A stretch of DNA of 64,000 nucleotides from Priestia megaterium NBRC 15308 = ATCC 14581 (GTDB taxonomy: Bacteria > Bacillota > Bacilli > Bacillales > Bacillaceae_H). Below the pieces are notes generated by a model. It was not told where the DNA came from. It saw nothing but the letters and a program-made list of their open reading frames with translations, and searched no databases. The stretch covers positions 4,086,501-4,150,500 of the forward strand of contig NZ_CP009920.1 of assembly GCF_000832985.1 (NCBI RefSeq), read 5' to 3'. Positions within the stretch are counted from its first letter, which is position 1, and every line of letters starts with the position of its first letter. Shown piece after piece: positions 8,540 through 31,779 of the stretch. Position numbers and translations under genes: made by a program.

Positions 8540-9106
8540 TTAATTGGATGCTTCAATCACATCTCCATTTTTGTAAATATGATACCACCCTATGGTACCT
8601 GATCCGCCTTGATCCATCCAGTCTTTGTTTTTTGCTACGAATCTGTAGTAAGCTTTATCGTTGTTATCTTTCCGTAAGCGGTCGTCTGTACTGAAGACAA
8701 TGTTGTCACCGAGTTCTTTTTTACCGAATGTAATAGCTGTGCTGACAGGAAATTGCTTTCTTTCTACCTTGTTCTCATCTAAAGCTGCCCATGTTAAGGG
8801 GCCAACAATACCATCTGGAGACAAGCTGTGATCGGTTTGAAATTCTTTTACTACGTTTTGTGTCTGCGTACCGAAAATTCCATCAACTGATGTGTTATAC
8901 TTCACATCTTTTAAGCTTTGCTGTAAGTCCTTTACGTAGCTAGAGTGAGAACCTTTACGAAGCGTAGGCCTTGTTTCTGCTTTAGTTTCAATTCTTTGTG
9001 AGTAGGTATCTTTAGCAGCTGCTTCAGTAGTTGGAGTGCTGAATGCTACGCATGTTGTTACAAGGGTGAGAGTAGAAAGCATGATAAGTGTTTTTTTCGT
9101 TAACAT
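8540..9106 (-). CDS. Secreted peptidoglycan-binding domain protein
   Basis: 188 residues with a signal peptide (MLTKKTLIMLSTLTLVTTC, cleavage probably near TEAAA). A PG_binding_1 domain spans roughly residues 48-110 (LRKGSHSSYVKDLQQSL, VDGIFGTQTQNVVKEFQ, DGIVGPLTWAALD). The last 75 residues (TFGKKELGDN to WYHIYKNGDVIEASN) look like an extracellular beta domain that I cannot name. AAGGAGG lies 7 bases before the ATG. It probably binds the cell wall. No catalytic domain is visible. Confidence 0.8.
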   Translation of the reverse strand: MLTKKTLIMLSTLTLVTTCVAFSTPTTEAAAKDTYSQRIETKAETRPTLRKGSHSSYVKDLQQSLKDVKYNTSVDGIFGTQTQNVVKEFQTDHSLSPDGIVGPLTWAALDENKVERKQFPVSTAITFGKKELGDNIVFSTDDRLRKDNNDKAYYRFVAKNKDWMDQGGSGTIGWYHIYKNGDVIEASN

Positions 9107-9338
9107 GAAATAACCTCCTTGTTTTTAGCAACTATTTGTCGCTTTTCATGAGTTTTATAACTAATCAGTAGCTATAAAGTCAATTTATTATAGCGCAGAC
9201 AGTTTTCTATTTGTTTTTATATTCCTATGATTATATAAGATAGTCATAAAAAACTAGTGAAGTAGATAAATCGTTCTACGTTTTCACTATAATTTCATTT
9301 TTCTCTGGTACAGTACGGAGGGAAAAAACAGCAGGTTT

Positions 9339-30399: not shown

Positions 30400-30597
30400 A
30401 TTATTTTTCCACAGGATTTTTTAGAGAAGAGAAATAATACACTATTTTACTCTTATAGATTAATTTGCTATTATAGGGAATGGTCAATTTCGAAACATTG
30501 TATAAATTTTTAACATGTTTACTGTTGACTATCTAAATAAAATCACTATATGTTTATAGAGAGAATATATTATGTGAAAGTAAGGGTGAGAAAAGAG

Positions 30598-31473
30598 ATG
30601 AGAGAGTATAGAATTGGGAGTGTTATGAGAGACCTTCGCAAAATGGCAGGGTTGACACAACAAGAATTATCAAGAGACATTTGTACACAAGCGCAAATCA
30701 GCAAAATTGAAAACGGTGAAGAATATCCATCAAGCATTACCCTCTATAAAATTTCTAAGCGCCTTGGCGTAGATGTTAACTACTTTTTTGATAGTGTAGA
30801 ATCACCTCGACTTGATTACGTAGATGCGGTTCAATCATTAATTCGTCAATATATTCGTCAGAGAGATTATGATGCTATTCATAATATCATTGTAAAAGAA
30901 AAAGAAAGTCCGCTGTTTCAAAATCCGCTGAACAAGCAATTTTTAATGTGGCACGAAGGTATTTGCGTGTATTACATTCATCATAATAAAGAAGATGCGC
31001 TGTCTAAAATGTACCAAGCGATCGAGCTTACTAAGCAATCGGCAACGTTTTATAAAGAAAGAGAAATTGAAATTTTAAATAGCATTGGAATTATTCTTTA
31101 TGAAGAGAAAGAGTATGAACAGGCTCTAGATACATATCAAACAGCACTCAAAAGCTTAAATGAGCTGCCCCAAACAAAAGACGAAAATATAAAAATTAGA
31201 ATTTTAAATGCACTTGCCAAAACGCTTGGAGATATGAGTAACTATGATGAATCATTAATATATAGCAACCGAGGAATCGATTTGTGCATTAGTAATGAAT
31301 CAATGTATTTATTTGGAGAACTTCATTACCAAGCAGGAGAGAGTTTGATCAAATTAGGTAAAATTGAACAAGGTAAAGAATATATGGAAAAGTCTATGAC
31401 CATTTTCACCCTGCAACGAAATGAGCGATTCGTCAAGCTAGTAGAAAAAGAACTTGAAGCTCTATTTGTTTAA
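30598..31473 (+). CDS. PlcR-like transcriptional regulator (HTH + TPR, RRNPP family)
   Basis: 291 residues. An N-terminal Xre-type helix-turn-helix (GSVMRDLRKMAGLTQQELSR to SKIENGEEYPS, residues about 5-60) is followed by about five TPR-like helical pairs (for example ILNSIGIILYEEKEYEQALD). Length and layout match PlcR of B. cereus, and the HTH aligns well with it. RRNPP proteins bind a re-imported peptide in the TPR cavity. A 39-codon exported peptide gene follows 150 bases downstream on the same strand, as papR follows plcR. The frame is open to 30550. ATG 30598 after GGGTGAG is preferred. Targets are unknown. Confidence 0.85.
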   Translation: MREYRIGSVMRDLRKMAGLTQQELSRDICTQAQISKIENGEEYPSSITLYKISKRLGVDVNYFFDSVESPRLDYVDAVQSLIRQYIRQRDYDAIHNIIVKEKESPLFQNPLNKQFLMWHEGICVYYIHHNKEDALSKMYQAIELTKQSATFYKEREIEILNSIGIILYEEKEYEQALDTYQTALKSLNELPQTKDENIKIRILNALAKTLGDMSNYDESLIYSNRGIDLCISNESMYLFGELHYQAGESLIKLGKIEQGKEYMEKSMTIFTLQRNERFVKLVEKELEALFV

Positions 31474-31503
31474 AATATTCCTATCATTATAATTTTTGAG
31501 AAA

Positions 31504-31558
31504 TTTCTATCAAAATGGAGAAAATCCATGGTTTTAAGGTGATAAATGCTGATAGAAA
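31504..31558 (+). promoter_or_regulatory. Inverted repeat between regulator and peptide gene
   Basis: TTTCTATCA (31504-31512) and TGATAGAAA (31550-31558) are exact reverse complements with a 37-base gap. A second small hairpin (TGGAGAAAATCCA) lies inside. It could end the regulator transcript or bind the regulator upstream of the peptide promoter. Confidence 0.4.
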
Positions 31559-31623
31559 GGAATTCATCTACTTTTATCCTGTGATACACTAGAGTCAAAT
31601 CAAAGAAAGAGGAGGAAATAATT

Positions 31624-31743
31624 ATGAAAAAAGTATTAGTCGGTATGGCATTAGCGTTTACATTAGTAGCAGGTGTTGCTTCAGTTGGAACAAGCGTGGC
31701 AACAGGAGATTTTTCAACATTAGGTCTTCCTAGCCAACATTAA
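31624..31743 (+). CDS. Exported signalling-peptide precursor (PapR-like, putative)
   Basis: A 39-residue ORF with a strong GAGGAGG ribosome site 9 bases upstream. Residues 1-24 form a classic signal peptide (MKKVLVG, then a hydrophobic core) with small residues near a cut (GTSVA). The tail after about residue 27 is GDFSTLGLPSQH. This build (secreted pro-peptide of 35-50 residues next to a TPR regulator, with the active part at the C-terminus) matches PapR/NprX/Phr precursors. The mature peptide is probably within the last 5-9 residues. The pairing is inference from position and architecture. A strong terminator follows directly. Confidence 0.7.
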   Translation: MKKVLVGMALAFTLVAGVASVGTSVATGDFSTLGLPSQH

Positions 31744-31747
31744 TAAG

Positions 31748-31779
31748 AAAAAGCCGTGCTAAGAAGCACGGCTTTTTTT
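31748..31779. terminator. Terminator of the peptide gene (also ends a minus-strand gene)
   Basis: AAAAAGCCGTGCT and AGCACGGCTTTTT pair over 13 bp around AAGA. The last bases overlap the stop of the small minus-strand gene, so it probably works both ways. Confidence 0.85.

Follow-up and report, generated by a model that had tools for sequence, protein, structure and literature searches.

The closest described relatives of the gene pair reported here are the receptor PlcR and its pheromone PapR from the Bacillus cereus group. PapR7 has the sequence ADLPFEF, in which Pro4, Glu6 and Phe7 are critical (PMC6568020). The four PapR classes of B. cereus end in LPFE(F/Y), VP(F/Y)E(F/Y), MPFEF and, for group IV, LPFEH, and the PapR glutamate and C terminus are contacted by the PlcR gatekeeper residues K87, K89 and K197 (PMC5007282). 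Mutagenesis of the PlcR box, TATGnAnnnnTnCATA, revealed that G4 is essential for PlcR (PMC2464732). B. cereus also contains PlcRa, a PlcR-type paralogue which, like the receptor described below, has its own heptapeptide (CSIPYEY). In contrast to the Priestia pair, PapRa is a 93-residue protein encoded upstream with an internal signal, and no palindromic operator was found for PlcRa (PMC3519770).

Three surveys of RRNPP systems (Felipe-Ruiz 2022, PMC9765709; Bernard 2023, PMC10075063; Moi 2025, PMC12700828) imply in their texts that PlcR-subfamily systems occur in other Bacillaceae. These texts, as distinct from the supplementary tables, name neither P. megaterium, an LPxQH code nor an element at -150; the Priestia pair may be among the supplementary entries. 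For P. megaterium, no PlcR-type signal was found described in the literature searched.

The regulator and its relation to PlcR

The pair lies in a window of 64,000 nucleotides, the whole stretch of DNA that was analysed, from the chromosome (5.3 Mb) of a genome in the Priestia megaterium group. A preliminary description of this DNA had named a 291-residue HTH and TPR regulator close to PlcR in length and HTH sequence, followed by a 39-residue secreted peptide gene with a ribosome site and a terminator, and both genes were confirmed (Table 1). A GGTGA-type ribosome site precedes the regulator start at 30598 and is kept in other Priestia, and an alternative upstream ATG is situated at 30550 (307 residues). 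The start at 30598 is preferred over the longer frame because both it and its ribosome site are conserved in relatives. Upstream of the regulator are ribBA- and ribD-like genes, whose position is kept in P. flexa and P. megaterium CH447_14T. Since these neighbors stay in place, the locus is fixed in the chromosome and not mobile.

Table 1. Features of the regulator-peptide locus, in window coordinates
Feature	Coordinates	Strand	Description
Receptor/regulator gene	30598..31473	+	291 aa; XRE-type HTH at about residues 6-66, five-TPR RNPP_C domain at 84-285
Conserved dyad element, candidate operator at the pheromone promoter	31474..31494	+	Motif conservation, fixed placement
Likely -10 box TACACT of the pheromone gene	31585..31590	+	TACACT/TACAAT kept at the same place in orthologues
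Ribosome-binding site AGGAGG of the peptide gene	31610..31615	+	
Pheromone propeptide gene	31624..31743	+	39 aa; MKKVLVGMALAFTLVAGVASVGTSVA Sec-type signal, then TGDFSTLGLPSQH
Predicted mature signal LGLPSQH, residues 33-39	31720..31740	+	PapR7 frame; xDLPxQH tandem repeats in relatives
Intrinsic terminator, both strands	31746..31779	+	15 pairs; fold z-score -7.5

Compared with Pfam, the regulator matches RNPP_C (2.7e-23; 83 bits, cut-off 26.5) and HTH_3 (6.5e-14; 52 bits, cut-off 23), and by sequence the best match among solved structures is PlcR (E 9.2e-25). An AlphaFold model built from a 64-row alignment (mean pLDDT 91.9, pTM 0.74) consists of the HTH followed by about ten TPR-type helices, with no 3HB. 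Its best structural match is the PlcR-PapR7-DNA complex (3u3w/2qfc; TM 0.77/0.80, Z 26.0), and the five-TPR fold of PlcR is matched over the full length. Lower matches include Rap (about 18-20), LGN (about 20) and NprR (Z 17.5). The RNPP_C/TPR peptide-binding domain and the HTH thus place the regulator, on sequence and model, in the RNPP/RRNPP family of pheromone receptors.

NprR, Rap and PlcR are all RNPP proteins with TPRs, and Rap and NprR do appear among the structural matches, so that a relative of NprR or Rap might be considered instead. Only PlcR, however, was matched over the whole length (Z 26; sequence 9e-25), and the 291 residues hold no extra TPRs. NprR and Rap are longer receptors with the hallmarks of nine TPRs and a 3-helix bundle, respectively. 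These hallmarks are absent from the 291-residue protein, and a closer kinship to either is extremely improbable.

In a tree of 104 proteins, rooted at the midpoint and with several long branches that are unsure, the regulator falls in a clade of 75 rows, and PlcR and L101 fall in a sister clade of 29 rows. Because this split (100/100) separates the regulator from the PlcR-holding clade, sequence comparison makes it a sister of PlcR and not a PlcR orthologue, with a peptide code and an operator of its own. The closeness to PlcR claimed earlier is correct for family and fold, but not for PlcR itself. The counterparts of the gatekeepers K87, K89 and K197 are R87, R89 and R201, a conservative replacement, and PlcR N201 corresponds to A205.

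The regulator is identical over all 291 residues in three further Priestia genomes and 99% identical in a fifth genome, and one identical copy belongs to Priestia aryabhattai B8W22. The genome that holds the window encodes a second PlcR-like receptor, L002 (C6:4500821-4501669), with 46% identity to the regulator. Its HTH is weaker and degenerate, its pocket residues are near-identical, and no adjacent peptide gene was found in any Priestia examined. This paralogue may be an orphan receptor that listens to the LGLPSQH-type peptide of the main pair. Elsewhere in the genome, LPxQH followed by a stop occurs once, at C6:2779150, and the motif is no commoner than in the control.

The peptide gene, its predicted signal and the receptor pocket

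Across five megaterium-group genomes the peptide ORF differs in 3 codons and in no amino acid. Because the changes are solely synonymous and the ORF is conserved beside the regulator in other Priestia species, it is a real gene. The Sec-type signal of the propeptide is likely cut after SVA. Among NCBIfam models, the leader has a weak likeness to the Phr_nterm and AimP leaders (E 0.1-0.2, below cut-off).

The regulator was found in all 16 genomes of the family, with a short secreted peptide gene directly downstream of every orthologue. A set of 74 named regulator loci was taken from GTDB genomes and searched with an automatic rule, comprising a ribosome site, a Sec-like N terminus and an [LIMF]PxxH/Y motif at most 600 bp from the regulator. 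A permissive tail pattern had 36/137 matches in control stretches and was dropped in favor of this stricter rule. A secreted LPxxH-type peptide gene is present within 600 bp at 50 of the 74 loci, compared with 1 of 277 control stretches situated a few kb away from them. The pairing is well above chance, and the regulator and the peptide gene are inherited together, which removes one of the grounds on which the preliminary description would have given up the pair. Peptides of the [LIMF]PxxH type occur beside the regulator in Priestia, Metabacillus, Mesobacillus, Cytobacillus, Peribacillus, Lederbergia, Robertmurraya, Aneurinibacillus, Salipaludibacillus, Pontibacillus and the Thermoactinomycetaceae. 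The peptide gene can also lie on the other side of the regulator, upstream and in divergent orientation, as it does in some lineages.

At the orthologous locus of the Priestia endophytica group (L016, L017), the peptides end in QYRH or EYRH without a Leu-Pro core and represent a fast-diverged signal. In the Priestia koreensis group (L098, L026), a second PlcR-like receptor, which is distant, is accompanied by a divergent propeptide with the C-terminal sequence DDELPFKH. Halobacillus and Chryseomicrobium have a close match to this tail (ELPFRH), and the likeness suggests horizontal spread.

The mature signal is predicted, from the sequence and by analogy with PapR7, to be the C-terminal LGLPSQH of about seven residues, and it is these last seven residues, and not the full 12-mer, that appear to be informative. 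In the PapR7 frame the tail keeps Leu3 and Pro4, with Gln in place of Glu at residue 6 and His at residue 7. Against the PapR code xx[LVM]P[FY]E[FYH], Leu3, Pro4 and His7 fit, and residues 5 and 6 do not. The code of most of the window clade is xxLPxQH, and the tails of the PlcR-clade relatives are DLPYEx, DLPHEV, DLPFED and similar. The tail had been described as different from known PapR peptides; residues 5 and 6 do differ, but Pro4 and the heptapeptide frame are retained (xxLPxQH versus xxLPFEF). No paper on LPSQH, LPTQH or LPNQH as pheromones was found in the literature searched. The signal is new to that extent, but as a new word in the PapR code and not as a separate code.

Tandem propeptides occur in Mesobacillus, Peribacillus and Lederbergia relatives, with 6-12 copies of the signal unit, for example VADLPSQHSQEGQT, in L038 (12 copies), L042, L049, L061 and L068 (10 copies each in the last two). 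This repetition marks xDLPxQH as the signal unit. Polyproteins of 7-12 xDLPxQH-type units were observed downstream of the regulator in L038, L039, L061, L068 and L075, one example being a pheromone polyprotein of 195 residues in Bacillus sp. ISL-37. The heptapeptide ADLPSQH is identical in several Mesobacillus-group species. Divergent peptides with EPGVMH or DPGSMH in Robertmurraya/Mesobacillus loci (L086, L088-L091, L094) keep the Pro and replace the Leu, and form a further dialect.

Covariation between the peptide and the receptor was examined over 75 receptor-peptide pairs, with peptide residue 6 scored as Glu or not. Receptor column 241 (E241 in the window, Q237 in PlcR) ranks first of 291 for predicting this residue. 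Peptides with Glu6 are paired with receptor Gln/Asn in 22/24 cases, and those with another residue 6 are paired with receptor Glu/Asp in 51/51. Overall, receptor E goes with peptide Q/N and receptor Q/R/K with peptide E/D, and 99% are assigned correctly; L081 (B. pinisoli) is an exception to the residue-6 rule. No paper on PlcR residue Q237 was found in the literature searched.

Small hydrophobic leader peptides are common, and an unrelated exported peptide such as a bacteriocin, a toxin or a cell-wall peptide could lie next to a regulator by chance. Such a neighbor is highly improbable here in view of the 50 loci against a single control, the conserved C-terminal code with its tandem arrays, and the covariation of peptide and pocket.

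The dyad element upstream of the peptide gene

A feature beyond the account in the preliminary description is a conserved dyad directly 3' of the regulator stop codon, AAAATATTCCTATCATTATAA, which is unchanged in P. aryabhattai and CH447_14T and differs by one letter, at an allowed position, in P. flexa. Its 16-bp core, TATTCCTATCATTATA (31476-31491), has the PlcR-box frame TAT-N10-ATA. Mismatches number 0 in Priestia and 0-1 in three Metabacillus, Peribacillus glennii and Pontibacillus. A de novo motif search of the region 200-50 bp before the peptide ATG recovered the dyad in 34/48 non-redundant loci, with an EM log-likelihood of 176 compared with 65-75 in 12 dinucleotide-shuffled sets. In 32 of these loci its distance to the downstream peptide ATG is 140-175 bp, and about the same range is found in both gene layouts. 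The peptide gene of Pontibacillus is divergent, yet the strand and distance of the dyad relative to it are unchanged.

The PlcR box TATGnAnnnnTnCATA itself is not matched in the window, where TATTCCTATCATTATA keeps the frame and G4 and C13 are replaced. Exact PlcR boxes are present upstream of the peptide gene in L101, L104 and L078. Among 32 receptor-operator pairs, HTH columns 36 and 32 tie for first place as predictors of operator base 4, telling G from any other base in 32/32; receptors of the R36/S32 type go with TATG, and K36/A32 receptors with TATT or TATA. L078 (Alkalihalobacillus macyae), whose place in the window clade has weak local support, shows a switch in every part at once: its peptide is DALPFEH, receptor residues 241 and 36 are Asn and Arg, and its box is TATGTATATCTTCATA. 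The covariation supports a peptide-pocket-operator model without proving it, because the contrast is mostly between two clades with few independent events. We regard the dyad as a candidate operator through which the regulator acts on the pheromone promoter.

On the minus strand, antisense to the regulator, a strong promoter-like match overlaps the dyad, TTGATA-N16-TATAAT (31513 to 31486, 11/12). This match would suit a reading of the dyad as some other promoter feature, such as an antisense promoter, or as the site of another factor. The antisense -35 part, however, is absent in P. flexa and Metabacillus, which retain the dyad. Where the peptide gene is divergent, the dyad is found with it and equally far from it, and operator base 4 changes with the recognition helix of the regulator. 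An antisense promoter was rejected, the promoter match not being conserved in other species, and the dyad as anything other than the operator of this regulator is quite unlikely.

The pheromone promoter appears to lack a good -35, as for an activated promoter. The dyad is about 95 bp upstream of the -10, and the sign of its effect is not readable from sequence. The regulator might be a repressor or dual regulator released by the peptide, as for PrgX and some Rgg proteins, with the dyad as the repression site; related RRNPP folds do include repressors, and Rgg2 and PrgX are among the lower structural matches. This opposite sign is unlikely: the protein most like the regulator by sequence, fold and operator frame is PlcR, an activator, and a far-upstream site with a promoter lacking a good -35 suits activation better. 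The most economical reading is auto-activation through the dyad.

Genome-wide scans in four Priestia genomes with ATATTCCTATYATTATAATT (3 mismatches) and TATTCCTATNATTATA (1 mismatch) gave 13 sites compared with 5, and 12 compared with 4, for reversed-pattern controls, a slight excess. No clear regulon emerged from these scans, and none is claimed because the excess is weak and most sites are in coding DNA or are kept among near-identical genomes only. An exact core, TATTCCTATGATTATA, is present at window positions 9220-9235, 129 bp before the gene of an exported peptidoglycan-binding protein (8540-9106, minus strand). It is kept in 5/5 megaterium-group genomes and is not found in more distant homologues. 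The gene is a candidate target only, and it was set aside together with the exported protein at C6:3149749, as the footprinted sites are conserved inside the megaterium group only.

Proposed mechanism and relation to known systems

The locus shares with PlcR-PapR an HTH and five-TPR receptor of the same length, a downstream peptide gene on the same strand, a Sec-type propeptide with a C-terminal signal, a heptapeptide frame with Leu3-Pro4, basic gatekeepers at PlcR positions 87, 89 and 197, and a dyad in the TAT-N10-ATA frame. In contrast, the Priestia receptor is only 26-30% identical and belongs to a sister clade. Its signal has Gln at residue 6 and His at residue 7 (PapR group IV is also His-ended), it has Glu in place of Gln at PlcR position 237, and HTH residue 36 is Lys instead of Arg. 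The operator, 140-175 bp ahead of the peptide ATG, is TATTCC/TATAAT instead of TATGnA, and the pair is without evidence of a virulence regulon. The systems in the survey texts belong to the same family, with a PlcR subfamily in Bacillaceae (PMC9765709, PMC10075063, PMC12700828) and multi-copy propeptides of up to six copies (PMC9765709), whereas relatives of the Priestia pair reach 10-12 copies. A PlcR-PapR-like pair outside the B. cereus group, as first proposed, is borne out by sequence, structure, co-inheritance, operator and covariation.

We interpret the locus, with a probability of roughly 0.88, as a two-gene autoinducing RRNPP pair that is sister to PlcR-PapR, in which a Sec-exported, Opp-imported pheromone would lead the receptor to activate the pheromone gene. 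By analogy with PlcR-PapR, the propeptide would be exported by Sec, trimmed outside the cell to its C-terminal seven or so residues, LGLPSQH, and re-imported via an oligopeptide permease; six SBP_bac_5 (Opp/Dpp-type) binding-protein genes are present in the genome. The peptide would bind the concave TPR surface with its conserved R87, R89, N161, K208 and R201, so placed that E241 faces the Q38-H39 end. R87, R89 and R201 would stand where PlcR has the lysines that contact the glutamate and the C terminus of PapR. The peptide-bound dimer may then bind the 16-bp dyad upstream of the pheromone gene and activate that gene in a positive loop, and it presumably binds further target promoters.

Systems outside the B. 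cereus group are not new in themselves, because the survey texts had already implied PlcR-subfamily systems in other Bacillaceae. What we did not find described is the LPxQH code of the clade, its operator with a fixed spacing, and the matched changes in the pocket and recognition helix. A wider reading, to which we assign even odds, is that the pair is one dialect of a pan-Bacillaceae family, sister of PlcR-PapR. This family would have a code linking 241 to residue 6 and 36 to base 4, and a dyad about 150 bp before the pheromone start in either orientation, and its three parts would co-evolve. Some of its lineages would amplify the signal in polyproteins with as many as 12 copies, and heptapeptides that are identical between species would allow cross-species signaling. 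If true, the ADLPSQH shared by several Mesobacillus-group species would be a case of the latter.

P. megaterium is a soil bacterium and an industrial and plant-associated work-horse. Its sensor very probably reads the neighboring mini-peptide, and the set of sensor, peptide and DNA switch, with matching changes, is common to many other Bacillus relatives. Should the prediction hold, one of its native regulators could be switched with a synthetic heptapeptide, in a host that is tractable and non-pathogenic. The pheromone, pocket and operator are three linked, evolving parts over dozens of genera, and therefore the specificity of pheromone for receptor and of receptor for DNA in PlcR-type sensors would be testable by simple swaps in harmless bacteria. 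Seen this way, the PlcR-PapR system of B. cereus is one branch of a signaling family that is older, broad and apparently not concerned with virulence.
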